DNA of 64,000 nt from Bacillota bacterium. GTDB lineage: Bacteria; Bacillota; Dehalobacteriia; UBA4068; UBA4997. Below the pieces are notes generated by a model, which was not told where the DNA came from, did not search any database, and was given only the letters and a program-made list of their open reading frames with translations. The translations under genes and the position numbers were made by a program. Numbering within the stretch: the first letter of the stretch is position 1; each line of letters starts with the position of its first letter. Shown here in pieces: positions 11,321 to 26,756 of the stretch. The stretch lies in NCBI GenBank assembly GCA_021771915.1, contig JAETNY010000011.1:1-64000 (forward strand), written 5' to 3'.

Positions 11321-14300
11321 TAAACTGCGCTCCTTTTTTTACATTGCTCGCGTCATGCAGCAACATATTACTTTTGGTAAAAATAGCATGTCTAGTTAAA
11401 AATGACACCTTATGTTCCCACTCACGATTACCGTCATATCTATTGCAGAACATATGGATTAAGGTTAGCAAAATATTGTCTATACTGTTAGCGAGCTGCC
11501 CAGTTGCCTCTACCTGTTTAATCTGCCGCGCATATTGTTGAATAACCGCTGTTCTCTCCTCAGCAATGCGCTGAACTTTGGCTGAAAAATTTTTAATATA
11601 GTTATCTTCTATCGCATTTAGATAGTCCTTTTTCTGTTTGCGGAATACCTCTTTATATTTAATATTATCCATATATTTAACAAAAAAATCATTAGTTGCC
11701 TGTATACCATCATAAAAACAGCCAACCAAATTTTGCATAACCCAAATACCAATTTTCTCCCGCTGAATTTCACCTGCATTCTTACTTATTTCTTGTAGCA
11801 AGGCAATAACGAATCGACTATCATAGCAAAAATAATTTTCAGCATATCTGATTAGATTTGAACCACCATATCTCTCAATTTCTCTTTCATATTGAGAAAT
11901 AATATATTCATAGCTAATCAGATTTTCCTGCAACAAATTAAACCATTCTCTAAATTTCTGCATAATCTCGCCCAACTTATCTGGCTTTGTAATTTGCAAC
12001 CGCAGGCGAATATGATATTTAGGATCAGCATACTTTATGAAAAAAAATTTTTTTATAATCGACTGATAAAACATATCATCAATAAACGGTTCCAGATATT
12101 TTGCCAAAAAGGTAGAAGCCTGCATTTTATTTACATATATTTTAAAATATATCCACCCCTCGTCTCCTGGATATAGCACTCGATCAGGCGTATAAAAACT
12201 AGACAATACATTTCTTACTGCATAAAAGGAACCAGAAGTATTCTCATTTGCACTAGAAATATGCTCCTGCAAATCAACCCTGAAAAATGGAACGCTGAAT
12301 TCCGCAGCATAAAATCTATGCTTCTCGTCCTTAACTAAAGAAGTCGAAATATTTTCATATTCCATTCTCTCTAAAACGACTTCCTTTCTTTGCTTAACCA
12401 ATGCTCTATATAGCAATTTAAAAGTAAACTCATTTTCCAAATCCAACACTAACCGATTATCCATATGAGCATAATACACATACTTAGGTAACTTCCAAAT
12501 TTGCAGGTATTCTTTTAGCTCCGTTGCAAACTGGTCCAATAATTTGCCTGTGAACTGTTCAGGATCCAAGCGCCATTTTTCATTAGACAGAACAATATTG
12601 CCAAATTTAATTTTAGGGCAGTAAGCATATTTCATACTTTGCAACATAAATAAATTTTGAATCGGCGACACCTCATAAGTAGCAGAAATACTGCGTAAAA
12701 AACGAATAACCGGATTGCTGGAAAAAACATTATACATACTGTTTGTTATAAACTTCACTCTTTTTTGCAAGGACTTAGACCAAATAAACATCTGATTTTT
12801 TTTGGGATCATGCCCCAAGTACAAATCATTCAGATTTAACGAAGTGTTATGCTCAAACTCAGTGATACCTAGATACAAATTATGATCATACTGACGCTTA
12901 TAGCTGTACAAATTGGTATTTCTCAAATAATGAGAGACTTCATAAACATCTGCAATAACATAATCTTCACTATGATGTAGCTTTTCTCGTCTATATATTT
13001 CGTCCATTTCCTGCGAGAAATCAGTATTCAGGGCACTGTCAAAGCGACTGATACCATTACCAGCTTGAGCAGAGCCTACATTTGGCCCAATGTATATTTC
13101 ATAACCGGTATCTGCATTGGTAACAAATACGTTTAAGCTGTATGAACTAGCATAATTCAATTTAGCCATTTCCTCACTATCTATGGCCTTTATGGTTTCA
13201 ATATCTGCATCTGTTATTTCCACAACAGATCGTCCTTGCCGAAGCGCAGTCATTATTTTATTTTCTAGCATTCCTTTTATAACATTTAATTTTCTATATG
13301 CGTGCCGAGAATTTCCACCTTCTGCTGCTTCAGCCATATACCCATTATATGGTAATCCCAAACCAATATCTGTGTCAATCACCTCGGTTAGAGGGATTAA
13401 TGCGTCAGAACCATACTTTACCATAAAAATATTCTTAAAGGCTTGCAACTTCTCGTCTTCATTATATGGCGTAGCTAGACTCATCATAAAGTCTGAGAAT
13501 TCTTCCAATTCATTTTTAATTTTAATATCCAACTTGTTATTTTCTGAATCCAATTTCAAAATTGTATAAATATAATTCTTGGCCTTAACCACCTGTTCCA
13601 TAAGCCCGGTTAGGCTTGCCAAAATTTCTTCTCCCTTACCAAACTGCGCCTTAGCATATTCCTCACGCAACTTGTCTATCTCAACCAATTTATCTATAAG
13701 AGCCTGTTCCTCCGCCAGCAAATCTATAAACTTATTGTTTTGCAGCAGGCTGTGCAGCGGATCATCTTCCTTTGATAATACACAGATATTTGTATATATG
13801 TATTCATTTTGCAACAACTCTTTTAAGAATTTGTCAATAATTTTCTGCGGCACATTGGGGTTTTTGGCAAATAAAAAGTTGCGCAAATCCTTAAAAGGCA
13901 CAAAATCGGCGGCAAACTCCCGTACATAATCCACCTGTTTGGTATATTTGATACTTAAATCCTCGGCATGTTCAACATTTTCCTTGCGCAAGTTAGAGCA
14001 ATAACAGTTTTTCAAACGAGATTTTGCCTTATAGCAATGCTTATTAAAAATTACCTGCAAATTCAGCAACAAGCCCGGCATTTCCTCAATTTTCTTTACC
14101 AGCTTAAAATACCACTCGTTATCGACCCGGCAAATTTTATGGTATTGCTCTTGCCCAGCCAAGCAAATATCCGTACCCTCACTACTGAACTCCGCCGTAG
14201 CCACACCAGCAAAAAGGCCATATGGCGTTGGTCTAGCAGTCATTCTACCATAATATTTTTTAACCGACTCAATCATTCTATCTGTGGTTTTAGTTGAGCT

Positions 14301-14477
14301 ATCTGCATACATTTTATATAAATCCTGCGAGGCAATAGCCACTGCCTCGGCAAATAGTTCATCTTGCCGGCAGAAAGCCATAACCTCATCATCTGCCAGT
14401 TTTGCAAAATCATAAAATTCATTCAAACTTCTGGCAGGACAACGCATCAATACATGGTTTGCCGCTTGATACTGCAT
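11307..14477 (-). CDS. lanB: class I lanthipeptide dehydratase LanB
   Basis: The 1056-residue protein is a full-length LanB. It has a large N-terminal tRNA-dependent glutamylation domain and, from about residue 770, the elimination domain (GWIYFKIYVNK..., then FFFIKYADPKYHIRLRLQI). It glutamylates Ser and Thr of the precursor with Glu-tRNA and eliminates glutamate to give dehydro amino acids. I prefer the ATG at 14477, which has GAGGTG six bases upstream, over the GTG three codons earlier, which overlaps that site. The gene overlaps lanC. Confidence 0.93.
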   Translation of the reverse strand: MQYQAANHVLMRCPARSLNEFYDFAKLADDEVMAFCRQDELFAEAVAIASQDLYKMYADSSTKTTDRMIESVKKYYGRMTARPTPYGLFAGVATAEFSSEGTDICLAGQEQYHKICRVDNEWYFKLVKKIEEMPGLLLNLQVIFNKHCYKAKSRLKNCYCSNLRKENVEHAEDLSIKYTKQVDYVREFAADFVPFKDLRNFLFAKNPNVPQKIIDKFLKELLQNEYIYTNICVLSKEDDPLHSLLQNNKFIDLLAEEQALIDKLVEIDKLREEYAKAQFGKGEEILASLTGLMEQVVKAKNYIYTILKLDSENNKLDIKIKNELEEFSDFMMSLATPYNEDEKLQAFKNIFMVKYGSDALIPLTEVIDTDIGLGLPYNGYMAEAAEGGNSRHAYRKLNVIKGMLENKIMTALRQGRSVVEITDADIETIKAIDSEEMAKLNYASSYSLNVFVTNADTGYEIYIGPNVGSAQAGNGISRFDSALNTDFSQEMDEIYRREKLHHSEDYVIADVYEVSHYLRNTNLYSYKRQYDHNLYLGITEFEHNTSLNLNDLYLGHDPKKNQMFIWSKSLQKRVKFITNSMYNVFSSNPVIRFLRSISATYEVSPIQNLFMLQSMKYAYCPKIKFGNIVLSNEKWRLDPEQFTGKLLDQFATELKEYLQIWKLPKYVYYAHMDNRLVLDLENEFTFKLLYRALVKQRKEVVLERMEYENISTSLVKDEKHRFYAAEFSVPFFRVDLQEHISSANENTSGSFYAVRNVLSSFYTPDRVLYPGDEGWIYFKIYVNKMQASTFLAKYLEPFIDDMFYQSIIKKFFFIKYADPKYHIRLRLQITKPDKLGEIMQKFREWFNLLQENLISYEYIISQYEREIERYGGSNLIRYAENYFCYDSRFVIALLQEISKNAGEIQREKIGIWVMQNLVGCFYDGIQATNDFFVKYMDNIKYKEVFRKQKKDYLNAIEDNYIKNFSAKVQRIAEERTAVIQQYARQIKQVEATGQLANSIDNILLTLIHMFCNRYDGNREWEHKVSFLTRHAIFTKSNMLLHDASNVKKGAQFNDVK

Positions 14478-14499
14478 AATAATCACCTCGTTAATTTAG

Positions 14500-15681
14500 T
14501 TAATCATATCTTAAAGCGTCTATCGGCTCTAAACGGGCGGCTCTGTTAGCTGGCAAAAAGCCGAAAACAACGCCCAAACCAACCGAAACGCCAAAGGATA
14601 ACAAAATCGAATCCACCGCCAGCATAAAGGGTAAATTCATAACCTGACAGGCAACGAAACCGACCGCTGTGCCGGCAGCAATCCCTAGCAGGCCGCCCAC
14701 GGCGCTGGTGCTGGCAGCTTCGATAATGAATTGCAGGCGAATATCACTGCGCCTTGCCCCGAAAGACTTGCGCACGCCAATCTCTTTAGTGCGCTCCTGC
14801 ACAGAAACCGACATAATATTCATAATGCCCACGCCGCCCACCAGCAGCGCAATACCAGCAATTGCTTTCAGCACCGAAAGCATACCGCTCTGCATAGATA
14901 ACATCATTTCCATACGCTCCTTTTGGCTGGTTACGTTAAAATAATCATCTTTTTCGTAACATTCCAGCAGGCTCTTTTCAATCGCCGCCACCGCCTGCTC
15001 CGAGCAGTCCCGGCTCACTGAATTAAGATTGAAGCTGCTCACAAAAGGCGTTTCGCCTAGCTTCAGCACGTTAGTGTAAGGAATATAAACCACATCATCA
15101 GCGCTGCCTGCGCCAGTTTCCAATTCGCCAAAGCTATTAAGCACGCCAACAACCGTATAATTTCTGCCCCGTATTTTCAACGTACCGCCCAATGCCGCAC
15201 CGTTCATAATCTCCTCGGCCACAAAACGCCCCACCACGCAGACGCTGGCGCGGCGTTCAATATCCATATACTGCAAAAAATCACCCTCGGCCACTTCCAT
15301 AAGCTGGGTTTGAGGATAGGCCTCGCTGACCCCGGAAATAACCGTCTGCATATAACGCTTATTTCCGTATTTAACGCCGCCGCCCAAGCCCACAATCGGA
15401 CTTAAATCACAGAGCAGGGTAGGATTATTGCTCACCAACTCATACATATCCGAAACCGTAATCCGTCTTGTAGAATCCCTGTTATAGATATTAACGCTAA
15501 TCATATTTGCGCCCATATTGTCAAACTGCGCCTCCACCTGCGCCAACGTGCCCCGGCCAATGGTCATAATCACAATAACCGCCGCCACGCCTACAATAAT
15601 ACCCAGCATAGTCAGCAAAGAGCGCATTTTGCGTGCCAACAGGCTTTTCAGAGCCATTACAAAGGCTTGCCGAATATCCAT
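14500..15681 (-). CDS. MacB/FtsX-type ABC transporter permease
   Basis: The 393-residue protein has the MacB layout: a first membrane helix (residues ~20-43, LTMLGIIVGVAAVIVIM), a long extracytoplasmic MacB_PCD domain, and three C-terminal helices. The FtsX signature VGGVGIMNIMSVSVQERTKEIG lies at about 280-302. The start overlaps the ATPase stop by one base (15681). Together with the second permease (17923-19149), the ATPase and the adaptor it forms a MacAB-like complex. In this operon it is a candidate for peptide export or self-protection. Confidence 0.88.
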   Translation of the reverse strand: MDIRQAFVMALKSLLARKMRSLLTMLGIIVGVAAVIVIMTIGRGTLAQVEAQFDNMGANMISVNIYNRDSTRRITVSDMYELVSNNPTLLCDLSPIVGLGGGVKYGNKRYMQTVISGVSEAYPQTQLMEVAEGDFLQYMDIERRASVCVVGRFVAEEIMNGAALGGTLKIRGRNYTVVGVLNSFGELETGAGSADDVVYIPYTNVLKLGETPFVSSFNLNSVSRDCSEQAVAAIEKSLLECYEKDDYFNVTSQKERMEMMLSMQSGMLSVLKAIAGIALLVGGVGIMNIMSVSVQERTKEIGVRKSFGARRSDIRLQFIIEAASTSAVGGLLGIAAGTAVGFVACQVMNLPFMLAVDSILLSFGVSVGLGVVFGFLPANRAARLEPIDALRYD

Positions 15682-16409
15682 TATTCCGCCGCCACAACCG
15701 CCTCCGGCGCGTCTGCCGTTCCGTCATAAACAATTTTGCCGTCCTCAAGCCGAATAATTCGCTGTGCCTGCCGGGCAATGGCGTTATCGTGAGTAATCAG
15801 CACCACCGTACGCCCCTCAATATTCAGCTGCTTCAAATAAGCCAAAATCTCCCGACCAGTTTGGCTGTCCAATGCACCGGTGGGCTCGTCCGCCAAAATC
15901 ACCGCCGGCTCGCCAGCCAAGGCTCTGGCAATCGCCACCCGCTGCTGCTGACCGCCGGAAAGCTGATTCGGCACATTCTGCGCTTTATCCGCCAGCCCCA
16001 CCTGCTCCAACAGTTTCAGCGAGCGTTTGTGCCGCTCTCCTGCGGGCATACCGGCGTATAGCATTGCCAGTTCCACATTCTCGCAAAGGTTCAGCTTGGG
16101 TATTAAATTATACTGCTGGAAAATAAAGCCCAGCGTTTTGTTACGCAGTTTGGCCTTGGCATTATCGTCCATACTTAAAACATCTGCCCCGGCCAGATGA
16201 TAACTGCCGGAGGTGGGCTTATCCAAACAGCCGATGATATTCATACAAGTGGATTTGCCGCTGCCGGAGGCCCCCACAATCGCCGCAAACTCGCCTCGGC
16301 GTATTTCCAAGCTTACGCCGTCCAAAGCGTGAACCGACGTTTCCCCAGTTTGATAAATTTTATATACATCTTGCAATTTGATGAGAACATCGTTATTTTG
16401 TTCATTCAT
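15681..16409 (-). CDS. MacB/LolD-type ABC transporter ATPase
   Basis: The 242-residue ATPase has Walker A GASGSGKST (~42), signature LSGGQQQR (~145), Walker B and D-loop DEPTGALD (~168) and a switch His in ITHD. It belongs to the MacB/LolD/FtsE class that pairs with FtsX-type permeases. It is the only such ATPase for the two permeases around it, which suggests that they form a heterodimer over an ATPase dimer. Confidence 0.92.
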   Translation of the reverse strand: MNEQNNDVLIKLQDVYKIYQTGETSVHALDGVSLEIRRGEFAAIVGASGSGKSTCMNIIGCLDKPTSGSYHLAGADVLSMDDNAKAKLRNKTLGFIFQQYNLIPKLNLCENVELAMLYAGMPAGERHKRSLKLLEQVGLADKAQNVPNQLSGGQQQRVAIARALAGEPAVILADEPTGALDSQTGREILAYLKQLNIEGRTVVLITHDNAIARQAQRIIRLEDGKIVYDGTADAPEAVVAAE

Positions 16410-16427
16410 TAACTGTATACTCCTTGA

Positions 16428-17909
16428 TTAGTTTTCGGCTGTGCCGACTGCTCCTGTCGGAATGACTATTTTCTCGCCCTCCTGCACGCCGGAAACAATT
16501 TCTACATAATAATCATCATTCATACCCAACTCTACCTGCCGCCAAGTATAGCCCGGCAAATCGCTTGGCTGTCCCTCCGAACCCTCGACCAGCAGCATAT
16601 TGCCCCGGCTTACGGCGTTCATCGGCACAACCAGCACATCTTCTGCCTGCTGCAAAACCACCTCGGCGTTGACGTTCATACCCGGCAACAGTGCGCCGAA
16701 CTCGTCCAGCGTTACAGTAATGGGGTAAGTGGTAACGCCGTTGCTGCTGTTGCCTTTAATGCTGATTTTGCTGACATAGCCTGCAAACTCTTGCCCCTGC
16801 AAAGCATCAGCCACCACCTGCACCGGCTGGCCAACTTTAATCAGGCCGATGTCCAGTTCGTCAACGTTCATCACAAATTCCAGTTTGCTCATATCGTAGA
16901 TAACTGCCATTTCGCTGGCGTTATTATTACTGTCGATTGTGTCGCCCTGCTCGAATTTCTTTTCAATCACCGTCCCAGCAATCGGCGAAGTGATTGTGTA
17001 ATACGCCAGCGCCGCCTGTGCGTTATCCTGCTCAATTCTGGCTCGGCGCAGGTCATTTTCCAAACTATCGTCAGATAAACGAATAAGCGTCTGGCCTTTC
17101 TGCACACGCTCGCCCTCGCTCACCAGAATTTCCGCAACATCGCCGCTAGCTTTGGCTAAAATCTGCTCACTATAATTATATTCCAGCAGACCACTGCGCA
17201 CACTGGTAAAACCGCCAGCATCGGCCGCCGCCCAATCCCCCTCCTGCAAACTGCCGGGATTTTCAACAGCAATAGTTAATTTATGGGTCAGCACGCCGCC
17301 GGAGCTTACCTGTTCCACACTGGAAATTGCCTTAATCGTGCCGCTGATACGCTGACCGTCGTTTTCCAAAATAACCTCTGCGGCCTGCCCAACTTGCAGC
17401 TGCTCGGCTTCGTCAGTTTTGAAAGGCGCGTCCAGCAGCATAATATCCCGGTCGCGCAGATACAAAAGCTGACTGCCCACATTCACGCTGTCGCCAGTCT
17501 CGCAATGGACTGTTACGACCTGACCAGTCTCCGGCGCAGTTACATTCAATTCCGCAATCTCTGTTTCGGCTTCTTGCAAGTTAAGTCGAGCCAGATTATA
17601 GCTGTTTTGCGCCCGGCCTGCGTCTATCTGATATAGCAGCTGCCCGGCTTCAATCATATCCCCCTCGCTAAAGGGTGCGCTTAAAACATCGCCGGTAACC
17701 AGCGCCTTAACGGTATAGGAGTTCACCGGCTGCACAGAGCCTACGCCCTCCATAATTGAGATAATAGAGCTGCGTTCCACTAATTGATAGCGATACGCCG
17801 GACTTTCCGCATTTTGCGCTCTATCCTGCCGGCCAACAAACCACCAAATTGCAATTCCCGCTATTATTAGCAACAAGATAGCAATTACAATTTTTTTCCT
17901 TTTTAACAT
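16428..17909 (-). CDS. HlyD/MacA-like periplasmic adaptor
   Basis: The 493-residue protein has one N-terminal membrane anchor (residues ~7-24), lipoyl/barrel-sandwich segments (VLSAPFSEGDMIEAGQLLY, then AEILVSEGERVQKGQTLIRL), a helical hairpin, and a C-terminal beta domain (DVLVVPMNAVSR). Such adaptors bridge an inner-membrane pump to an outer-membrane channel or cell-wall space. No TolC-like gene is present nearby. It lies 13 bases after the permease at 17923 and 18 bases before the ATPase. Confidence 0.88.
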   Translation of the reverse strand: MLKRKKIVIAILLLIIAGIAIWWFVGRQDRAQNAESPAYRYQLVERSSIISIMEGVGSVQPVNSYTVKALVTGDVLSAPFSEGDMIEAGQLLYQIDAGRAQNSYNLARLNLQEAETEIAELNVTAPETGQVVTVHCETGDSVNVGSQLLYLRDRDIMLLDAPFKTDEAEQLQVGQAAEVILENDGQRISGTIKAISSVEQVSSGGVLTHKLTIAVENPGSLQEGDWAAADAGGFTSVRSGLLEYNYSEQILAKASGDVAEILVSEGERVQKGQTLIRLSDDSLENDLRRARIEQDNAQAALAYYTITSPIAGTVIEKKFEQGDTIDSNNNASEMAVIYDMSKLEFVMNVDELDIGLIKVGQPVQVVADALQGQEFAGYVSKISIKGNSSNGVTTYPITVTLDEFGALLPGMNVNAEVVLQQAEDVLVVPMNAVSRGNMLLVEGSEGQPSDLPGYTWRQVELGMNDDYYVEIVSGVQEGEKIVIPTGAVGTAEN

Positions 17910-17922
17910 TTTTATAAATTCC

Positions 17923-19149
17923 TTAATCGCTGTTTATAGCGTCTACAATTTCCATTTTCGCCGCTTGTTTTGCCGGATATGTACCAAAAGCCCAACCAAT
18001 CAATATAGTAATAACAACTGCCACTAATACAGGCCAAATAGCAGCATACAAATAACTGAAAGAAGATTGTGTCCACAGTATAAGAAATAAAACTACAAAA
18101 AAACCTGATAAGACACCTAATAAACCGCCTATCAAACCAGTAATAACCGCCTCCAGTGCAAATTGTTGCTGAATATTGCGATTAGTTGCGCCAAAAGCCT
18201 TGCGAATACCAATTTCTTTAGTTCGAGCCTGCACACCAGCTAGCATAACATTCATAATGCCTACGCCGCCGACAAGCAACACAATACCTGAAAAAAAACT
18301 CCAATGAATAGCATCACCAAGAATATAACCGCGTACCATTTCCGAGGTATCTCCAATGCTATAAACCTGCAATATCCAACCATTATTTTCTTCTCTTCTA
18401 GTGCGCTCACAAAGCATTTCTTTTATTAAGACCTGGGTTTTATACATATTTTCTTTACCATTGGCACAGACAAAATATTTATCATTATAATTACCATAGG
18501 AACTTATTGATTCACCATTAATCTTTCTAGCATTAGTGTAAGGAATATAAACCTCATTATTTCTGATAGGTATAATATCATTTTGCACATCAGCAAACAC
18601 ACCAATTACAGTGTAATTTTCACCCCAAATTTTCAAAGTTTGTCCTAATGCATTGCCTTCCATCAAGTCATTAGCAATACTGTGGCCAATCACACAAACA
18701 TTACGCTCTCTGGAAATATCCATATATTCCAGAAAACGTCCCTCATGCAAACGCAACACCGGCACCATATCAAGATAGCTGCTGTTCACACCATAAACTC
18801 GCGCATCATCTTTCGTTCTTTCACCATATCTCACGCCTCCAGGCAAGTCAAATTCAACATATGGTGATATACCACTGATAATCTCTGGATTGTCCTGCGC
18901 TAGTTGTTCCATATCGCTTGGCATGACTTTCATTGGCAAATCCACACTCACATAAGTCCAGGTTTGCATAAGCGTTGGAGCATATTCATCTTGCTGTATC
19001 TGAAGATCCATCAATGAAATATTATTGGCAGTCCAAGCAAAAACAAATCCAGCTATACCGATAACCATACCTAGAATAGCTTGCAAACAACGCCCTTTAT
19101 TAACAAATAAACTTCTGACAGAATTTTGCAATGTTTGTCTAATATTCAT
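17923..19149 (-). CDS. second MacB/FtsX-type permease
   Basis: The 408-residue permease has the same architecture as the one at 14500-15681, including LVGGVGIMNVMLAGVQARTK and a C-terminal GTYPAKQAAKMEIVDAINSD. I start it at ATG 19149 (MNIRQTLQNSV), which has AAAGGA seven bases upstream and matches the MDIRQAF start of its partner. The longest ORF begins at 19212 without such a site. It follows the precursor gene by 78 bases and is probably cotranscribed with it. Confidence 0.85.
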   Translation of the reverse strand: MNIRQTLQNSVRSLFVNKGRCLQAILGMVIGIAGFVFAWTANNISLMDLQIQQDEYAPTLMQTWTYVSVDLPMKVMPSDMEQLAQDNPEIISGISPYVEFDLPGGVRYGERTKDDARVYGVNSSYLDMVPVLRLHEGRFLEYMDISRERNVCVIGHSIANDLMEGNALGQTLKIWGENYTVIGVFADVQNDIIPIRNNEVYIPYTNARKINGESISSYGNYNDKYFVCANGKENMYKTQVLIKEMLCERTRREENNGWILQVYSIGDTSEMVRGYILGDAIHWSFFSGIVLLVGGVGIMNVMLAGVQARTKEIGIRKAFGATNRNIQQQFALEAVITGLIGGLLGVLSGFFVVLFLILWTQSSFSYLYAAIWPVLVAVVITILIGWAFGTYPAKQAAKMEIVDAINSD

Positions 19150-19192
19150 TCTATATTCCTTTGGCATAATGTTCTGATAAAATATATACAAA

Positions 19193-19207
19193 TGTGGGCT
19201 ATAAAAT
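19193..19207 (+). repeat. inverted repeat bracketing lanA, downstream copy
   Basis: TGTGGGCTATAAAAT on the plus strand. Its exact reverse complement lies at 19565-19579 on the other side of lanA. The similarity extends with few mismatches to ATACA on the outer side. Confidence 0.6.
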
Positions 19208-19227
19208 TTCAAAATTTATTTAAGTAA

Positions 19228-19410
19228 TTATCTGTCGCAAGGCATAGTAGACACACCACCGCAGGACATGCTACAATCACCACAAGTATCACAATTGGAA
19301 AGACAATCATTGCATGTACCACAGCCAGTTCTGAAAGTGATTGCCTTAGTGCTATCATCAACATTTGTTCCAACAGTTACATCCAGATCAAAATCTTCGT
19401 ACATTGCCAT
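19228..19410 (-). CDS. lanA: lanthipeptide precursor peptide (class I, FxLD-like leader, 8 Cys)
   Basis: The 60-residue peptide starts MAMYEDFDLDVTVG. FDLD at residues 7-10 is the LanB-binding box of class I leaders. The C-terminal half is packed with Cys (30, 33, 36, 40, 43, 46, 50, 58) and Ser/Thr (25, 28, 32, 38, 42, 47, 49, 54, 55), so up to eight thioether rings are possible. AGGAGGTG precedes the ATG. It heads the operon with two permeases, adaptor, ATPase, lanB, lanC and lanT. The layout resembles actinobacterial FxLD lanthipeptides more than nisin: there is no ITS start of core and no GxxPR cleavage site. The leader/core border is not evident. Confidence 0.9.
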   Translation of the reverse strand: MAMYEDFDLDVTVGTNVDDSTKAITFRTGCGTCNDCLSNCDTCGDCSMSCGGVSTMPCDR

Positions 19411-19443
19411 TATTTTTCACCTCCTCCTGCTTGCTGACCAAGT

Positions 19444-19620
19444 TTACACAAATGCGTCCTCGCATCGGCCAACACAAACCTTTGCAACAATTATTTGCCG
19501 CAGATGATAGCTAAAATTTGCTATCATCTGCAACATCGTTTTATAATGACTGGCCTTGGTAAGTATTTTATAGCCCACAAATGTATCAAATTTAATAGAT
19601 TGATAAAAATTACTTTTCAT
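19444..19620 (-). CDS. possible 58-codon leader ORF upstream of lanA
   Basis: An uninterrupted frame from ATG 19620 (MKSNFYQSIKFDTFVGYKIL...) to TAA 19444-19446 fills most of the transcript leader between the ECF-type promoter and lanA. It ends 33 bases before the lanA start. I see no convincing ribosome binding site and no known family. It contains the hairpin at 19500-19531. It could be a regulatory leader peptide, a second small product, or a chance ORF in AT-rich DNA. Confidence 0.25.
   Translation of the reverse strand: MKSNFYQSIKFDTFVGYKILTKASHYKTMLQMIANFSYHLRQIIVAKVCVGRCEDAFV
19500..19531 (-). promoter_or_regulatory. perfect 12-bp stem-loop in the lanA leader
   Basis: GCAGATGATAGC and GCTATCATCTGC form a perfect 12-pair stem around an eight-base loop, 90 bases ahead of lanA. 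No T-tract follows in the sense direction, so it looks like an mRNA structure (stability, processing or attenuation) more than a terminator. Confidence 0.6.
19565..19579 (-). repeat. inverted repeat bracketing lanA, upstream copy
   Basis: ATTTTATAGCCCACA on the plus strand, the exact reverse complement of 19193-19207. It lies in the transcribed leader, so both copies could pair in the RNA and enclose lanA. Confidence 0.6.
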
Positions 19621-19662
19621 AATAATCTTGTTTGATAATTTATTTAGTAATTTTTACCTTTC

Positions 19663-19702
19663 TATTATATAAGCAGCACGAGAAGGGCAAAATGTAACGC
19701 TA
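19663..19702 (-). promoter_or_regulatory. ECF-type promoter of lanA
   Basis: On the minus strand TAGCGTTACATTTTGC is followed by TGCTGCTTATATAATA. The same two blocks at identical spacing occur at 21150-21189 in front of the anti-sigma gene. This is the classic sign of a shared sigma factor, most simply the ECF factor at 21218-21805. Transcription would start about 245 bases before lanA, which gives a long leader. Confidence 0.75.
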
Positions 19703-19756
19703 AATTTTAAAATATTTTCGCAAACCTAACTTTTAGCTTCATTTTGCCATTTAAGC

Positions 19757-19799
19757 AAAAAAAAATTGCACATCACAGAAGCAAATCTGCAATGTGCAA
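19757..19799 (-). terminator. rho-independent terminator of the sigma/anti-sigma operon
   Basis: TTGCACAT (19766-19773) pairs with ATGTGCAA (19792-19799), with an inner CAGA/TCTG stem. On the minus strand the hairpin is followed by nine T residues (19757-19765). It ends transcription after the secreted protein gene, so lanA needs its own promoter. Confidence 0.88.
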
Positions 19800-19826
19800 C
19801 AAATAAAATTATCAAATTATAATTTA

Positions 19827-20255
19827 TTATACCGCAGCCGTGATAAATTCTCTGGAATCATATCCGCCTTTTTCAGCATAAAAATATACCTTGGCTCGAT
19901 ATTGGTAACCTGATTTAGCGCCATAATAATACACATTTGATGCATGTCGTCTGGTATTATAGGCCAACATATTAGAATTATCATTACTGGACATTGTAGC
20001 CACCGCTGTCCAACTGCTCGAACCCAGCGCTTTCTCCTGAATAACGATCGTTTTAGCTCCGATTACATCCATTGTGCCAGTACCGCTTATATTAAAAGTT
20101 ACTGTTATTGTATTTCCAGAAGAACGAGCTGCCTGTGCCACGCAATCTGTAATATATTCACTGGAATAAATTGTAGCATTAGCAACAGATGTAATACAAA
20201 AAAATGCAACCAAAATTAATGATATTAAAGAAATTCTTTTATACATTATTTTCAC
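19827..20255 (-). CDS. secreted small beta-rich protein of the ECF operon
   Basis: The 142-residue protein has a clear signal peptide (KRISLISLILVAFFCITSVANA) and a mature part of alternating polar beta strands (NTITVTFNISGTGTMDVIGA...YRAKVYFYAEKG). It resembles DUF6147-like secreted proteins of Firmicutes, but I am not sure of the family. The start overlaps the anti-sigma stop by four bases (ATGA), so the two are translationally coupled. It may sense or protect against the peptide; that is inference. Confidence 0.6.
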   Translation of the reverse strand: MKIMYKRISLISLILVAFFCITSVANATIYSSEYITDCVAQAARSSGNTITVTFNISGTGTMDVIGAKTIVIQEKALGSSSWTAVATMSSNDNSNMLAYNTRRHASNVYYYGAKSGYQYRAKVYFYAEKGGYDSREFITAAV

Positions 20256-21133
20256 TCTCCATAAATTGAATTTATTATATTTTCAGCATCTTCTAAAGAG
20301 AAATGACCTTTAATAGAACCTGCATAATCTTCATTCCGCCATACTATTGCTCTAATACCTAAATTATCCATAATATAATACTTGGTACCATACATTTCAT
20401 ATTCAGTAACTTCCGAAGTATCTTTTTCATATAATGGAGTATTATTATCGTTTATGGGAAACATATAATCTATATACAATTCATCAATGCTGTTATTTTT
20501 TTCTCTGACAAAATCGGCACAAATACTATTTAATGCACCATCTTTGAATAAATCTACTTTATCAAATACATAACCCTCCGGCAGCCATTCAGGCACTAAT
20601 TGAAGTCCCCCAGCATAATCCGCTACAACATCAGCTAACTCGGTAGTTACGGTAACCGGTTCAAACCAAAACTGATCGTCATTCCATCTGCCGATAACGC
20701 CAAGAGGGTTATAACCCAAAGCATATGCCGTAGCGGTCCCAATAGATAGAAACAACACCAGAACTGCTACCGCGCTAGAAAATTTACGCCAGCTTTTTTT
20801 GACAAAAGATAAAACCTTACCTTGAGAATTTTCCTGCGGAATATTATTGCTTACCTCTTTGTCCGTCTCATCATCAAAGGTATATAACCCTTCTTCCTTT
20901 TGAGCCATAGGATAATAATATTCAAAAAATTCATTCAATGAAGTTTCAACATCTTTATGCTCAACATTACGGCGTTCCGCTATCAGATTGGCAATATATA
21001 AGGCCTCCTCCGCATCAATCTGTTCAGCTTCTGGGGCGTCAAAATCAGCTCGCAGAATCGCCTCTAAAACAGATGTATCTAGCAAGTCGAATTTCTTATA
21101 ATTTGGACACCCTTTTGCTTCGACTTTCGACAT
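20252..21133 (-). CDS. membrane anti-sigma factor with DUF4367-like C-terminus
   Basis: The 293-residue protein has a cytoplasmic N-terminal region (about 1-110), a single membrane helix (AVAVLVLFLSIGTATAYALG, ~117-136) and an extracytoplasmic domain that includes LVPEWLPEGYVFDKVDLF and the C-terminal MYGTKYYIMDNLGIRAIVW, then ENIINSIYGE, as in DUF4367 proteins. It is encoded right after an ECF sigma factor, the normal place for its anti-sigma factor. GGAGG precedes the ATG. Its own ECF-type promoter overlaps the ribosome binding site region, which gives negative feedback. Confidence 0.8.
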   Translation of the reverse strand: MSKVEAKGCPNYKKFDLLDTSVLEAILRADFDAPEAEQIDAEEALYIANLIAERRNVEHKDVETSLNEFFEYYYPMAQKEEGLYTFDDETDKEVSNNIPQENSQGKVLSFVKKSWRKFSSAVAVLVLFLSIGTATAYALGYNPLGVIGRWNDDQFWFEPVTVTTELADVVADYAGGLQLVPEWLPEGYVFDKVDLFKDGALNSICADFVREKNNSIDELYIDYMFPINDNNTPLYEKDTSEVTEYEMYGTKYYIMDNLGIRAIVWRNEDYAGSIKGHFSLEDAENIINSIYGE

Positions 21134-21149
21134 AACAAAACCCCCCTCC

Positions 21150-21189
21150 TATAATATAAGCAGCATAACAAGTGCAAAATATAACGCTA
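21150..21189 (-). promoter_or_regulatory. ECF-type promoter of the anti-sigma gene
   Basis: On the minus strand TAGCGTTATATTTTGC and TGCTGCTTATATTATA match the lanA promoter blocks at the same spacing. The start of transcription would fall about ten bases before the ATG, so the mRNA leader is very short. Confidence 0.72.
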
Positions 21190-21217
21190 CAATTTATGTT
21201 TTTTTATAAAAATTTCA

Positions 21218-21805
21218 CTATTTTTTATTGCCAAATAATTTGCGTATTTTTATTCTTGCCCGATATAAACGCTGCTCAATTACTCTAATGCTCACGCCAT
21301 ACTTATCTGCAAGATCTTTTAAGGATTTATCCTCGACAGTAAATTCTTTTATCAGCTGGAACTCCTTATGTACAGCTAAATCAGAATATAAGAAATCTAC
21401 ATCTTCATCCATAGGCTTGTTATCAACAAAATCTTCCATACCCATCTCAACACCAAATTCTATATCCGCCTGTTGAGGTAAATATACCATTAATTGTGCA
21501 AGCTGCTGTTTTTTTCTTATAATCTGCGATATAGATAACTTTAAAGATTTATAAAGCCATTTTACAGGATCATCATATTGCATAACTTTCTCTATCTTAT
21601 ACTTACCATCATCATCTTTCTTATCTTTCCTGCAAAGATCTAAAAAAACATTTTGCACTGCCTCTTCCGCATTACTTTTTTCCAAACGACCTATTGCATA
21701 ATTAAAAAGCGACTCCTGATTAGTTCTATATAATTTTTCTATAAATTCTCGTTCTTCCTTAGTTAATTCACATCGCTCCTGTCGTCGCTTGTCCATAATT
21801 CCCAT
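21218..21805 (-). CDS. ECF-type RNA polymerase sigma factor
   Basis: The 195-residue protein has sigma region 2 (SLFNYAIGRLEKSNAEEAVQ, then NVFLDLCR and WLYKSLKLSISQIIRKK) and region 4 (VEDKSLKDLADKYGVSIRVI, then EQRLYRARIKIRKLFG). It has no region 1 or 3, so it is an ECF factor. It is followed by its membrane anti-sigma gene. The start could be 21805 or the in-frame ATG at 21796, which has better spacing from GAGGTGG. It is the likely activator of both promoters described above, and so of the lanthipeptide operon. Confidence 0.85.
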   Translation of the reverse strand: MGIMDKRRQERCELTKEEREFIEKLYRTNQESLFNYAIGRLEKSNAEEAVQNVFLDLCRKDKKDDDGKYKIEKVMQYDDPVKWLYKSLKLSISQIIRKKQQLAQLMVYLPQQADIEFGVEMGMEDFVDNKPMDEDVDFLYSDLAVHKEFQLIKEFTVEDKSLKDLADKYGVSIRVIEQRLYRARIKIRKLFGNKK

Positions 21806-21825
21806 TCCACCTCACAAAAAATATA

Positions 21826-22191
21826 TCACATATTTATTATATCACTTTCCCTGGAATTTTCCAGAGCTTTAACCAAAGTTCTCATAACATCTTCCACTAT
21901 CTCCAAATCTTTTTCGTTTTTACCTTTTAATAGAGCTATAATGTTATTCATTGTAACATTGTCATCTTCCTCAGCAAATAAACTATCCATACTTATTCCA
22001 AGAATTTCCGTTATTTTAACCAACGTGTTAACAGTCATTTCCCTTGACCCATTTTCGATTTTGTTATAAAGAGGTTGTGTTATACCAATATTGTGAGCCA
22101 TAAAATCTTGTGTAAGATTCATTTTCTCACGGTAAAAAAGTATATTTTTTATAAGCCTTTGTTTTACCTCAGAATCTAATTTATATTTCAT
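21826..22191 (-). CDS. XRE-family regulator upstream of the ECF operon
   Basis: The protein has an HTH at about residues 10-65 (NILFYREKMNLTQDFMAHNI, then GITQPLYNKIENGSREMTVN) and a helical tail. I choose ATG 22191, seven bases after AAGGAG; the TTG at 22197 is too close to that site. Only about 20 bases separate it from the ECF gene, so it may be cotranscribed with it and set the basal level of the sigma factor. Confidence 0.78.
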   Translation of the reverse strand: MKYKLDSEVKQRLIKNILFYREKMNLTQDFMAHNIGITQPLYNKIENGSREMTVNTLVKITEILGISMDSLFAEEDDNVTMNNIIALLKGKNEKDLEIVEDVMRTLVKALENSRESDIINM

Positions 22192-22466
22192 TACCAATCT
22201 CCTTAAGCATAATATGTTATATATAGTATAACTTAATCTTTTTGTTTACATAATGCACTAACTGGCATATTATTTATGACATAATATAAGGACATTATAT
22301 TTTACAGAAAACAAACCAACCTAGAATAATTTTTTTAGTTAATTGCTATTGACACACTGGCTATTTTTTCAAACGTATGTTAAAATGCTTAATAACCAGC
22401 TGCACAAAAAAGATTCTGGACTTTAAACTCGCTATGTGCTAAACTATTTATAAAGGAGGATATCTA

Positions 22467-23438
22467 ATGGAACAAGAAACAGCTATCAATCCACAAAAAA
22501 ATCAATATGACGCAATGTGCAAAAACCTCCTAGCCAAGAAGTATACTTTGGCAAGAATTATGCAAAGTTGTATGAGAGAATATCGGAATTACAGCTTGAA
22601 TGATATTGCCGAAAACTTCATTGAAGGGCAACCTGAAATTGGCAAGACAAAAGTCTTTCCAGATGAAACAGCAATGATTGACGGTATTGCCAATGAAGAT
22701 ACATCGGTTGAAGAAGGTACGGTAGTTTACGATATTCGCTTTAAGGCTATCCTTCCTAAAAACGATGGCTATATAAACCTAATTATCAATGTAGAGGCTC
22801 AGGCGAATTTTAACCCCGGTTATCCGCTGATAATGCGCGGCATATATTATTGCAGCCGTATGCTTTCCACTCAGTACAACCGGGAATTTACTAAATCGCA
22901 TTACGAAAAGCTAAAAAAGGTAGTGTCAATATGGGTTTGCACCGAGCCTACAAAACAGCGTTTTTGCACTCTGAACGAATACAATATAGCAGAGAATAAT
23001 ATTATTGGCAGTACGAAAGAAGATTCAGCTAACTATGATTTAATGTCAGTATTTATGATATGTTTAGGCAACCCTGATACTGAAGATTATAATGGTATTC
23101 TTAAATATTTGGACGTTCTTTTATCAAAAAAATATTCCAAACAGGAAAAGAAACAAATACTAGAGAAAGAATTTGATTATCATTTTAACGCTGAAACAGA
23201 AATGGAGGTCGATGAAATGTGTAATTTAGCTCAAGCGATAGAAGATAAGGGCAGAGAATTAGGCAGAATTGAAGGTATGCAAAAGGGCATTGAAAAGGGC
23301 AAGCTTGAAACCACACTTGCCAACATTCAAAGCTTGATGTACAAAGTTAGTTGGACTGCTGAACAGGCAATGGACGCACTCAATATTCCACAGGAGGAGC
23401 GCAGCCAATACCTGCCCAAACTTAAACACCTTAACTAA
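22467..23438 (+). CDS. Rpn-family PD-(D/E)XK nuclease (recombination-promoting nuclease-like)
   Basis: The 323-residue protein shows the PD-(D/E)XK core VVYDIRFKAI...LIINVEAQ (about residues 88-112) found in Rpn/YhgA-type proteins, and a charged C-terminal helix rich in Gly, Lys and Glu (GRIEGMQKGIEKGKLE). Rpn proteins are DNA endonucleases that promote RecA-independent recombination and spread on mobile DNA. AAAGGAGG precedes the ATG. It is transcribed opposite to the surrounding genes and is probably a separate acquisition. Confidence 0.85.
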   Translation: MEQETAINPQKNQYDAMCKNLLAKKYTLARIMQSCMREYRNYSLNDIAENFIEGQPEIGKTKVFPDETAMIDGIANEDTSVEEGTVVYDIRFKAILPKNDGYINLIINVEAQANFNPGYPLIMRGIYYCSRMLSTQYNREFTKSHYEKLKKVVSIWVCTEPTKQRFCTLNEYNIAENNIIGSTKEDSANYDLMSVFMICLGNPDTEDYNGILKYLDVLLSKKYSKQEKKQILEKEFDYHFNAETEMEVDEMCNLAQAIEDKGRELGRIEGMQKGIEKGKLETTLANIQSLMYKVSWTAEQAMDALNIPQEERSQYLPKLKHLN

Positions 23439-23499
23439 TTTTATCCACTAGTAGAATAATTTTATCTTAAACTAAAATTATACCTTAATACTTGATTTT

Positions 23500-23752
23500 A
23501 ACAAACTCACCCTCTGCCCGGCTTTGCAGGGCAAGGGTTGAGTTTGTTGCAGCAAGCGATGTGTCTGGGTACCCAAACACAAAAATAGCCTATTCGGTGT
23601 TACCCGAATAGGCTGTTTTGCTTGTTGGGGGCAAATCCCCCAATCCCCCTCTTGAACGCTCAAACAAGTTTCTCTATGCACAAATGCATAGAGATTAGTT
23701 CTCACTAAATTCTGCCTGCTGCTCCGCATTGGCAATCATTAAGTGTTCACTT
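23500..23752. other. hairpin-rich noncoding region beside the relaxase gene (candidate oriT)
   Basis: Four inverted repeats follow each other: AACAAACTCA...TGAGTTTGTT (23500-23548), AGCCTATTCGG...CCGAATAGGCT (23587-23614), TTGGGGG-N5-CCCCCAA (23625-23643) and AAGTG-TT-CACTT (23741-23752). The gap between mobC and the gene before it is only three bases, so oriT cannot lie in its usual place there. This is the largest noncoding space near the mobilisation genes. The assignment is inference. Confidence 0.35.
23587..23614 (+). terminator. terminator-like hairpin downstream of the Rpn gene
   Basis: An 11-pair perfect stem, AGCCTATTCGG with CCGAATAGGCT, is followed by GTTTTG on the plus strand. 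It would end the convergent Rpn transcript and could also act on the minus strand. Confidence 0.55.
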
Positions 23753-23795
23753 ATGAGCGGCGGCGCATTTCTCCCGTTGGTCGAAACGCTTATGT

Positions 23796-25202
23796 TCAGC
23801 GATTCGTTTCCACTTCACGCTGAACATTTTTCTCTTTGCTGTCGCTAACCTCCAGCAAATTATCTACATTGGCCTTAACAGTTAAAAGCTGCTTCATTTC
23901 CTCTCTGGCCTGCCGGTAGTCGCCATAAGCCGCTTTCTTCTCATTCAGCAGTTGCGCATATTCCGTCTGCAAGCTTTTAACCGTTGGCAGCTTTTTCAAA
24001 CCTAAATCGTCAAAGGCTTTCTTTGCCGCCCTATGTAACAGCAAAGCGCTTTCGTGTTCCGCAGCAAACTTTTTAGAATAGCCAGACTTCTTGTATGCTG
24101 CAAAAATTTCCCTCGTCTTATGGTAGTTTATGATGTGCGTTTTCAGCACAGCAATTTCAGCCATACGGCTTTCTGCTGCCTTAATTGTGCAGGATAACTC
24201 ATCATATTTCTGCGTTGCTGTCGCAGTTCTAGCCACCAATTCATCATAACTCAGCAGGTTATTTTCATTAAGATAGTTATAAGTTTTCGCCAACTGTTTA
24301 AGATTGAAAACTGTTGCCCATTTAGCGTAGCCGCCGCCCTTACCCTCGGCTAACTTCTGCTGAATATCTACCAACAGATTTATTTTATCCTGCGATTGGG
24401 GCATTTTCTTGCTGGCTATAACCGCTCTCAATTCAGCTTCAGAATATCCATCACCTAATCTATCTAACCGGGCAAACTGTTTCCAGCCTGCGGCTTTTAA
24501 GCGCCAGTTTTTCCCTCGCTTGCTAACCTCAATACCCACCTGCTCCAGCAGTTTTAACAACTCATCAAAATCTGCCGGTTGCTGTGTTAGCGCCTTATCT
24601 ATGGCCTGCCGCAGCACATCTTTTTGCGTTGGTGTTTGGACAATGCCCTGCTGCTCCTGCCACTTGTTATAGCTTAACCCCCAGCGGTTTTTCGGCTCAT
24701 CAATTACTGAATAACCATTCTCGATACAGATTGTGTCGCTCAAGCGGCGTATCGCTTTTGTACTGCCCCAAAAGTTACAGAACTTGCGATTATATTCCAA
24801 ATTTACAGAATTGAAGATGATATGGTTATGCAGATGTTGGCGGTCAATATGGGTACAGACGATAAAGGAGTGTTGGCCTTTAGTAAATCTCATTGCTAAC
24901 TCATAGCCCAGCCGATTTGCCTCCTCCGGGGTAATCTCCCCAGGCTTAAAAGACTGCCTTATCTGGTAGGCTATGACATCATTTTTCTTTGGTTCTCTGC
25001 CGCTTTTGGTCTGATAAATTCTATGCGCAAGGGCAAATTCTGCGTCGGCTATTCGGCTATCACACTCATAGCGGCTGATGAGCCTGCCGTCATCCGTCTT
25101 GGCCGGATTTTCCATATAGTCGATTATCCGAGCGATTGTCGAGCTAACCTTGCGGCCTTGGCTGTTATGCAATGGTATCAATCTTGTTGTTGCGATAAAC
25201 AT
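23796..25202 (-). CDS. relaxase (MobA/VirD2-type mobilization nuclease)
   Basis: The N-terminal relaxase domain carries the metal-binding histidine triad HIDRQHLHNHIIFN (about residue 118). N-terminal TTRLIPLHN and SRYECDS with early tyrosines supply the nicking residue. A coiled-coil C-terminal part follows (~300-465). The enzyme nicks oriT and pilots the transferred strand. I prefer ATG 25202 (MFIATTR) over the GTG codons just upstream, which lack a separate ribosome binding site. It follows mobC by nine bases in one transcript. Confidence 0.92.
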   Translation of the reverse strand: MFIATTRLIPLHNSQGRKVSSTIARIIDYMENPAKTDDGRLISRYECDSRIADAEFALAHRIYQTKSGREPKKNDVIAYQIRQSFKPGEITPEEANRLGYELAMRFTKGQHSFIVCTHIDRQHLHNHIIFNSVNLEYNRKFCNFWGSTKAIRRLSDTICIENGYSVIDEPKNRWGLSYNKWQEQQGIVQTPTQKDVLRQAIDKALTQQPADFDELLKLLEQVGIEVSKRGKNWRLKAAGWKQFARLDRLGDGYSEAELRAVIASKKMPQSQDKINLLVDIQQKLAEGKGGGYAKWATVFNLKQLAKTYNYLNENNLLSYDELVARTATATQKYDELSCTIKAAESRMAEIAVLKTHIINYHKTREIFAAYKKSGYSKKFAAEHESALLLHRAAKKAFDDLGLKKLPTVKSLQTEYAQLLNEKKAAYGDYRQAREEMKQLLTVKANVDNLLEVSDSKEKNVQREVETNR

Positions 25203-25211
25203 CACCACGCT

Positions 25212-25559
25212 TTATTTGATTTTATCCAGCCCACGCAAAATATCGTTAGCTGAGTTTTCCAAATGAGCAAAGCTCTGCCTTATATCCTCTAAATCCTCAG
25301 CATAAATCCGCCCTGTCGTATTAACCCTCTTTGTCAGCTGATTAAGGTTATTAGAGGAACGCCGGAGCAATGAGATTAAATCCTTCAACTCCGGCATTTC
25401 TAAATTGATTATATAACCGTCAATAGCCATTTTGCGCAGATAAGCCGCCATATTGGAAGTCCCAAGTAAAGCCATTTTCTGCTCTATAAGCCCTCGCTCC
25501 TCCGGCGTAACCCTAAACTTTAACTGCACCTCTCGCTGCCTTTTTTCCGTTTGTGCCAT
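25212..25559 (-). CDS. mobC: MobC-like relaxosome accessory protein
   Basis: The 115-residue protein has a ribbon-helix-helix start (REVQLKFRVTPEERGLIEQK...TSNMAAYLRKMAIDG) and the MobC C-terminal pattern (LKDLISLLRRSSNNLNQLTK, then RVNTTGRIYAEDLEDI). It binds oriT DNA and helps the relaxase. It lies three bases from the upstream gene and nine bases before the relaxase gene. Confidence 0.9.
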   Translation of the reverse strand: MAQTEKRQREVQLKFRVTPEERGLIEQKMALLGTSNMAAYLRKMAIDGYIINLEMPELKDLISLLRRSSNNLNQLTKRVNTTGRIYAEDLEDIRQSFAHLENSANDILRGLDKIK

Positions 25560-25562
25560 AGA

Positions 25563-26417
25563 TTAACGCTCCGGCTCTTTAGGCTTTTTCTTGGGTGTTG
25601 GCGTTTTGGGCTGTTGGGTCTTTTGCTGCAATTTAGCCAAAACTGACGGTCTGGCTTTTTGCTGTTCCTGCTCAAACTCTCTAACGCCGCTGGCAAACAT
25701 ATCCAGCAAGCCGGGGTGAGTGCTTAAAGCAATATAATCCTGGCTATGCCGCTCCACTGCTGGGGCAGGAACGGTTTTTGCCCACTCCTTATTTTGAGCG
25801 GATATTCTGCCGTCCCAGTCCAGATACCGCACCTGATTCGCCAGCACAAATTTTATTCGTTCCATACCAAACCGAGGAAGAAGCTCCTCTATTGCCCTAA
25901 CGCTATCCAGCGAATAGCCGAAATAATTATTATGTATAGCTTCCTCAATAGCCTGGCCGCAAGCCACATTGGCCTGATGAGATTTCCTAAACAAGTCAAT
26001 ATCCCCACAATCCGCCGCACATTCATAGGTCTGGTTATATAAAGGCACATTGGCAAACTGCATAAATTCCTCCTGCTCCTGCTGCAAAAAGATGTTAGCC
26101 CGCTCCGCGATTGTATCCAGAATATCTTGCATATAATCTGTTTCTTTCTTTGTCCAATCCTTATAAATATCTTCCAGCGGGCTGGAGGATTGTAGCAGCG
26201 CTCTGGCCTGCGCCGTAGGCAGCGGATTATCGTCCAAAGCCATTAAAATATCCTCTTTGGTAACATATTCATAGGTATGATGCAAAATCTCGGATACCGT
26301 CTGACTTTCCAGCCACGCCCGAAATTTATCCTGTTCCGCCCGCATTTTATCATATAAGGCATTATTCAATTCCTCGTTATTCATTTCATTGATTTTTTTC
26401 AAATTTTTTTCGTCCAT
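25563..26417 (-). CDS. DUF3848/DUF3849-type ICE protein
   Basis: The 284-residue protein has an N-terminal helical region (NNELNNALYDKMRAEQDKFR..., about 8-110) and a second domain (VPLYNQTYECAADCGDIDLF, then RKSHQANVACGQAIEEAI) as in DUF3849 proteins of Tn1549-like elements. The C-terminal tail is Lys/Pro-rich. The start is ATG 26417, which has TAGGAGGA upstream; the longest frame (26462) lacks such a site. The function is unknown; it always travels with MobC and the relaxase. Confidence 0.8.
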   Translation of the reverse strand: MDEKNLKKINEMNNEELNNALYDKMRAEQDKFRAWLESQTVSEILHHTYEYVTKEDILMALDDNPLPTAQARALLQSSSPLEDIYKDWTKKETDYMQDILDTIAERANIFLQQEQEEFMQFANVPLYNQTYECAADCGDIDLFRKSHQANVACGQAIEEAIHNNYFGYSLDSVRAIEELLPRFGMERIKFVLANQVRYLDWDGRISAQNKEWAKTVPAPAVERHSQDYIALSTHPGLLDMFASGVREFEQEQQKARPSVLAKLQQKTQQPKTPTPKKKPKEPER

Positions 26418-26513
26418 ATATTTAATTCCTCCTAACATAATCTCAAAAAAATATTTTATCAAAATTTATTCTATGGTATAATTTTAAACAAATATATTGT
26501 AAAAGGTGATTTT

Positions 26514-26756
26514 ATGGCAAACAGTGAACAGCTTTGGCAAGAGGCCAAAAAGAAATGCCGTTTAAACAATGAAGATATTGCTTTAGCCAAACGGCTAGGT
26601 TTAAATCCTCGCAGCCTTATCAAAAACATACCCAGCAAAAGCGAGCCTTGGAAAGCGCCGGTAAAAGACTGGCTGCACGAAATTGATGAAAAACGGCAGA
26701 AAAAGACTGCACAAAAACAAATGCGCAAAGAAAAGGCGCAGGGAAATAATAATTAA
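26514..26756 (+). CDS. conserved small ICE protein (80 aa)
   Basis: The protein reads MANSEQLWQEAKKKCRLNNE, with a conserved-looking core LAKRLGLNPRSLIKNIPSKS and a WKAPVKDWLHEI motif that recurs in small proteins of Firmicutes conjugative elements. AAAGGTGA precedes the ATG. It is on the strand opposite to its neighbours and ends convergently, with a four-base overlap with the giant helicase gene. The function is unknown. Confidence 0.75.
   Translation: MANSEQLWQEAKKKCRLNNEDIALAKRLGLNPRSLIKNIPSKSEPWKAPVKDWLHEIDEKRQKKTAQKQMRKEKAQGNNN

Follow-up and report, generated by a model that had tools for sequence, protein, structure and literature searches.

Predicted ECF sigma control of a lanthipeptide precursor gene through cassette-specific promoters in uncultured Peptococcaceae

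In actinomycetes, PspX/PspW form the ECF sigma/anti-sigma pair of planosporicin, and in Firmicutes (clostridia) alternative sigma factors of the UviA/TcdR type control bacteriocin and toxin genes; to our knowledge, the latter systems include no DUF4367 anti-sigma cassette and use a different promoter. RseB is an anti-sigma partner that senses envelope stress. Class I lanthipeptide clusters of low-GC Gram-positive bacteria have lanA under two-component control, as with NisRK and SpaRK. For microbisporicin, a lantibiotic, control by the ECF/anti-sigma pair MibX/MibW has been shown in actinomycetes, where MibX recognises GAACC-N15-GCTAC upstream of mibJ, Q, R, X and E, the mibA promoter is without this ECF motif and depends on MibR, and mibXW are co-transcribed in a positive loop (PMC4973701). 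In the open-access literature, we found no report of an ECF-controlled lanthipeptide in Firmicutes, nor of a sigma factor with a direct effect on lanA there, and no paper naming DUF4367.

Here we describe a lanthipeptide cluster in the window, that is, the whole 64,000-nucleotide stretch of DNA that was analysed, for which the first-pass annotation had proposed ECF control of lanA with negative feedback through a membrane anti-sigma factor, in place of a LanRK system. Like MibX/MibW, this locus combines a pathway-specific ECF sigma factor and a membrane anti-sigma factor with a motif shared within a class I cluster, and has no LanRK; unlike MibX/MibW, the putative ECF motif stands directly before lanA, whereas the sigma gene, upstream of which the motif was looked for and was absent, shows no sign of positive autoregulation, and the motif itself reads GTNAC...TATATA as against GAACC-N15-GCTAC. 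Inspection of the window's list of open reading frames revealed no MibR-like or LuxR-type regulator. The locus also resembles RseA/RseB and MucA/MucB in its membrane anti-sigma factor, its RseB-like predicted extracytoplasmic fold and an operon that would be under its own sigma, but differs from them in carrying the RseB-like domain within the anti-sigma protein itself (11-15% sequence identity over the aligned part), in belonging to a different phylum and in having a peptide cluster as its target. ECF/anti-sigma control of lantibiotics is known; what appears new is a sigma factor predicted to act on lanA itself and to leave the gene that encodes it uncontrolled.

The cluster, its twin and the regulatory cassette

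The host genus comprises uncultured Peptococcaceae, relatives of Candidatus Avidehalobacter (named record, Candidatus Avidehalobacter gallistercoris). Read along the minus strand of the window, the genes follow in this order:

21826-22197 (-), XRE-type regulator, upstream of the sigma gene (HTH_3, E 4.4e-13)
21218-21805 (-), ECF sigma factor, 195 aa (TIGR02937, family profile, PDB matches)
20252-21133 (-), putative membrane anti-sigma factor, DUF4367 (PF14285, 33.1 bits, cut-off 22.1)
19827-20255 (-), small secreted protein with signal peptide and beta domain, third cassette member (alignment A3)
19228-19410 (-), LanA precursor, 60 aa, with FDLDV box and Cys-rich core (sequence)
17923-19149 (-), MacB/FtsX-type ABC permease 1 (family scan)
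16428-17909 (-), HlyD/MacA-type adaptor (by inspection; homologue 82% identical in the second cluster)
15681-16409 (-), MacB-type ABC ATPase (by inspection; homologue 86% identical in the second cluster)
14500-15681 (-), MacB-type ABC permease 2 (by inspection; homologue 79% identical in the second cluster)
11307-14486 (-), LanB dehydratase (PF04738, E 1.5e-116; PF14028, E 3e-49)
9971-11320 (-), LanC cyclase (PF05147, E 2.8e-42)
8180-9955 (-), LanT-type ABC exporter (PF00005, E 6.1e-30)

LanB and LanC, together with a LanA that carries an FxLD box (FDLDV, by inspection), assign the cluster to class I as judged from sequence; no peptidase domain was among the Pfam matches of the LanT-type exporter. 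As the first-pass annotation had supposed, a LanRK-type system was absent: unlike clusters under NisRK or SpaRK, the window's contig (C18) contained neither a response regulator nor a histidine kinase, and the genome-wide matches to response-regulator domains (30) and HATPase domains (20) all lay elsewhere. The host genome (G000) has two LanB genes, and elsewhere in the order the only copy was found in genome G007. The second lan cluster of the host (G000:C3), whose LanB is 70% identical to that of the window, has an equivalent cassette and nearly the same gene order with one extra permease, and the LanA leader and 5' end are homologous between the two. Each LanB cluster thus carries the cassette with its own promoter pair, and the pair of the second cluster is a different variant (AATGTCACAAAATGC...AAGACATATATATTATAG before lanA), which suggests that the sigma-to-lanA link was kept while the code changed. 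Three further class I LanB loci, from a sample of 398 genomes across the phylum, had no homologue of the ECF sigma factor or of DUF4367 in the 12.8-19 kb retrieved around them.

By itself, the window sigma protein scored just under the TIGR02937 cut-off (E 1.8e-10; 40.7 bits, cut-off 42.9 bits) and slightly under the Pfam cut-offs too; its family profile reads clearly as ECF, with Sigma70_r4_2 in 13 of 13 members, Sigma70_r2 in 10 of 13 and PDB matches to SigL, SigH and SigW (E 3.5e-9 or better). The family alignment shows Sigma-70 regions 2 and 4 only, in proteins of the ECF length of about 160-200 aa, and a candidate sigma-specific promoter lies in the same cassette. A gene resembling Rpn-family recombination-promoting nucleases/transposases (22467-23438, weak match) adjoins the cassette.

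The DUF4367 protein, encoded next to the ECF gene, has the layout of a membrane anti-sigma factor according to hydropathy and its model, namely a cytoplasmic helical N-terminus, one transmembrane helix (about residues 118-139) and an extracellular DUF4367 domain. The predicted fold of this domain came closest to that of the RseB C-terminal domain (93 residues, rmsd 2.8, Z 9.4), a likeness that by itself shows no function; the anti-sigma profile had no significant sequence relative in the PDB, and a search of public plasmids found no relatives of the anti-sigma protein. From gene order, topology, predicted fold and knowledge of the family, we infer that the protein inhibits the sigma factor. 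With its role drawn from such features, and with no Hx3Cx2C motif evident in the anti-sigma alignment, it might instead be a membrane-bound co-activator or presenter of the sigma factor in a positive loop, which we consider improbable, since the adjacent ECF gene, the helical N-terminus, the single membrane helix and the RseB-like fold all fit a membrane anti-sigma factor and the zinc motif is missing from many anti-sigma factors (PMC7406223). For an inhibitor of this kind, one membrane helix and an extracellular domain of RseB-like predicted fold make it plausible that the signal is sensed outside the cell.

The start of the third gene overlaps the anti-sigma stop, and its product, the small secreted protein, is kept in 11 cassettes at 38-62% identity (alignment A3). 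Its structure model had a pLDDT of 86, and its Pfam matches were scattered and weak, none of them convincing; a fold search returned generic beta-sandwich matches only (TM about 0.4), so we assign the protein no function.

A promoter motif matched within each cassette

The candidate promoters of the window are as follows:

19663-19702 (-), putative ECF-type promoter 5' of lanA (pattern match, genome-model E 6.9e-6)
19698-19694 (-), -35-like GTTAC, and 19674-19667 (-), -10-like GCTTATAT, within the lanA promoter
21150-21189 (-), putative ECF-type promoter of the anti-sigma/secreted-protein operon (pattern match, E 1.6e-5)
21185-21181 (-), -35-like GTTAT, and 21161-21154 (-), -10-like GCTTATAT, within the anti-sigma promoter
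21836-21863 (-), sigmaA-like promoter of the sigma gene, TGGAAA-N16-TATAAT with TG extension (promoter scan)

The paired blocks that had been reported before lanA and before the anti-sigma gene were present on the minus strand, where the lanA site (19702 to 19663) reads TAGCGTTACATTTTGCCCTTCTCGTGCTGCTTATATAATA and the anti-sigma site (21189 to 21150), which abuts the ribosome-binding site, reads TAGCGTTATATTTTGCACTTGTTATGCTGCTTATATTATA. Their spacing was identical at both sites, as claimed; the accompanying figure of 32 bases was wrong, the block starts lying 24 bases apart with an 8-base gap in a unit of 40. The two sites agreed at 34 of 40 bases (PWM register), compared to 35 of 100 in the upstream and 33 of 100 in the downstream flanks, which is background for such AT-rich DNA, so that the remaining sequence of the two regions is indeed unlike. 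An IUPAC pattern of the motif, searched at up to 3 mismatches, matched the window exactly twice (0.00 expected from 100 dinucleotide shuffles), and these two were also the only matches in the 2.3-Mb genome, where the reversed control pattern had none. A host-genome search for further members, which the first-pass annotation had suggested, did add cassette-linked sites elsewhere once a model was used: a sequence-only covariance model (22 sites), with 150 of 1,618 candidates scored so that weak motif members may be missed, gave at least 14 sites at E<1e-4, 13 of them in ECF cassettes and the remaining one before a MacB-type permease operon (C16). Orphan motif copies of the form TGTAAC...ACGTATATAG were seen before a MacB-type permease operon at G000:C16:85334 (L097) and G007:C23:8839 (L128); this operon is related to the transporter of the lan cluster and has no sigma cassette adjoining.

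Searches with the sigma and anti-sigma proteins identified about 15 distinct cassettes in the host genus, with 7 matches to the anti-sigma family in G000 and 6 in G007. Going by gene content, the combination of an ECF sigma factor, a DUF4367 membrane anti-sigma factor and a small secreted protein is a conserved unit. The gap between the sigma and anti-sigma genes carried a version of the motif in every full cassette, directly 5' of the anti-sigma ribosome-binding site (GTTAC, GTAAC, GTCAC or GAAAC, followed after about 20 bases by a TATATA-type block), and so did the distant homologues that belong to other families within the order (L073, L074, L075). The spacing from GTNAC to the TATA block was fixed across copies, and the expected transcription start falls just 5' of the ribosome-binding site, as in ECF promoters. 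A matrix derived from the anti-sigma promoters alone detected extra copies downstream of the secreted-protein gene, before the next gene; a second, third or fourth copy was found in the 12 tested cassettes, and the second copy, present in most full cassettes, preceded both lanA genes, genes for signal-peptide proteins, a collagen-like repeat protein and others. Among the individual sites, those at L032 11814 (G000:C16:71813) and L033 6174 stand 5' of a cupin-like gene in G000 and of a collagen-like GXT-repeat protein in both genomes. At L142 14959 (G007:C37), a serine-recombinase-like gene seems to replace the sigma/anti-sigma part, and the secreted-protein gene and target promoter are retained.

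Across 12 cassettes, target promoters agreed with their own anti-sigma promoter at 32.4 of 40 bases compared to 23.1 of 40 for those of other cassettes, the own-cassette promoter was the best match in 11 of the 12, and none of 200,000 permutations reached the observed value. Matches fell on the -35, where they covered GTNAC plus four following bases, and on positions immediately preceding and within the -10, the middle spacer not being common, and differences between cassettes concentrated at the -35 and -10. Cassettes with more similar sigma proteins also had more similar promoters (Mantel r 0.61, p 5e-5). Such a cassette-specific pattern would be expected if each sigma factor reads its own promoters, and neither chance nor a plain sigmaA promoter nor a common operator would readily produce it; descent of the cassettes as units may account for part of the co-variation, and copies matched within a cassette and diverged between cassettes would still call for a shared reader. 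Motif recurrence, cassette-matched second copies, co-variation with the sigma factors and the second lan cluster all argue for the ECF control of lanA and the anti-sigma gene that had been proposed, and the motif is very probably the promoter that the ECF sigma factor of the same cassette reads, driving lanA and the anti-sigma operon. Insulation between the paralogous sigma factors is predicted.

The lanA copy can also be read as TTTTGC-17-TATAAT, that is, as an ordinary sigmaA promoter resembling the other site by recent duplication or chance. This is very improbable, because the putative -35 TTTTGC is AAATGG or AAACGC elsewhere while within-cassette matching persists, the strong genome copies are almost all cassette-linked, the flanks stand at background identity, and a separate promoter of more typical form, TTGgnA-TGnTAnAAT, precedes most sigma genes. 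The AT-rich -10 of the motif could be read by sigmaA too. Despite the AT-rich -10-like element and an XRE gene that neighbours the sigma gene in the window as in about eight further cassettes (not all), we give hardly any weight to an operator of the XRE regulator (21826-22197) with sigmaA transcribing, and rejected it because the motif is kept equally in cassettes without a detected XRE gene (L029, L031, L032, L034, L042), of which L031, L032 and L042 have the second copy too, while the fixed -35/-10-like spacing, the end at the expected start and the lack of a dimer-operator palindrome also speak against it.

The proposed circuit

The candidate promoter of the window sigma gene is the sigmaA-like TGGAAA-N16-TGATATAAT, equalled by 1 of 200 shuffles. 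In the cassettes, extended -10 elements of sigmaA type occur within 150 bases upstream of the sigma gene; in 5 of 14 the element is not clearly above shuffles. In the divergent cassette L044, a site resembling the motif lies where the sigma gene begins. Since the window sigma gene has this sigmaA-like promoter and no ECF motif, the predicted loop would consist of anti-sigma feedback only, a cleaner form of the negative feedback than that first proposed.

In this circuit, the sigma factor would be made steadily from its housekeeping-type promoter, and the DUF4367 anti-sigma factor, going by what is known of the family, would hold it silent at the membrane. A signal acting on the extracellular domain, and perhaps also on the co-encoded secreted protein, would free the sigma factor, which would then drive a burst from lanA, probably through the whole lanA-to-lanT operon, together with the anti-sigma/secreted-protein operon, whose fresh anti-sigma factor would end the response. 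The mature peptide itself, wall damage or something else may serve as the signal. Binding of the sigma factor to these promoters, its inhibition by the DUF4367 protein, the part played by a signal and the timing of the response are all inferred.

Transcript folds and transfer of the cluster

Folding and an inverted-repeat scan of the lanA region gave the following predicted elements:

19602-19658 (-), 5'-terminal hairpin of the predicted lanA transcript (folding; equivalent fold in the second cluster)
19565-19586 (-), 5' arm of a leader-trailer stem around the lanA ORF (folding, inverted-repeat scan)
19186-19207 (-), 3' arm of the leader-trailer stem, just after lanA (folding, inverted-repeat scan)

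Both predicted lanA transcripts, with z of -4.4 and -3.8, had a hairpin at their extreme 5' end and a leader-trailer stem. This stem counts 20 pairs in the window; its counterpart in the second cluster counts 19 and has A-U in place of one G-C pair, a compensatory double change, and the window arms pair perfectly over 15 bp, or over 20 bp including a 2x2 loop; the inverted repeats at lanA, of 15 and 14 bases, compare with a maximum of 12 in 500 shuffles. Two independent sequences are suggestive here, and the pairing is likely an RNA stem that closes the lanA segment and possibly serves mRNA stability, with a DNA-level inverted repeat as the alternative. A 12-bp inverted repeat in the lanA leader (GCAGATGATAGC, 19500-19531) forms a strong hairpin, the sequence of which is not kept in the second cluster. 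Predicted second-promoter transcripts start alike with AGGGGTAAAAATTACCAA (19602-19658 and the L030, L031, L037 and L042 leaders), and surface-protein targets have an additional conserved leader of about 150 nt, GCTGAAAAC...TTTATAGC, without an Rfam match. At gathering thresholds, Rfam detected no known cis-regulatory RNA in the target leaders of ten loci.

Positions 12722-27793 of the window were 99.96% identical to G007:C46 over 15,072 bases, a region that holds the cluster, the cassette and part of a relaxase/helicase region, whereas other cassette loci were 91-95% identical between G000 and G007 over their main alignments. This difference in identity points to a recent transfer of the cluster unit together with its regulator. 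Beside it are encoded a relaxase-like protein, at 23796-25208, and a helicase-like protein of 2,556 aa, and this lan cluster probably sits on a conjugative element.

Taking the parts together, we lean slightly towards a picture in which mutually insulated cassettes occur throughout the genus (seven here), with codes that diverged along with their sigma factors, and switch exported products, in both lan clusters among other places; one of these clusters would lie on a probable conjugative element recently moved between species, with the sigma factor driving lanA directly and the lanA transcript closed by a leader-trailer stem. An ECF factor would then act directly on lanA in a bacterium that is no actinomycete, with feedback through the anti-sigma factor only, and the small genome of one gut bacterium would supply a natural collection of paralogous sigma/promoter pairs, testable for insulation. 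This picture predicts which sigma factor to express for activating two uncharacterised lanthipeptide clusters, and the promoter signature may lead to further exported products in uncultured Peptococcaceae. What this gut bacterium appears to use for turning on its antibiotic-like peptide is a small mobile switch of sigma factor, membrane inhibitor and secreted protein.
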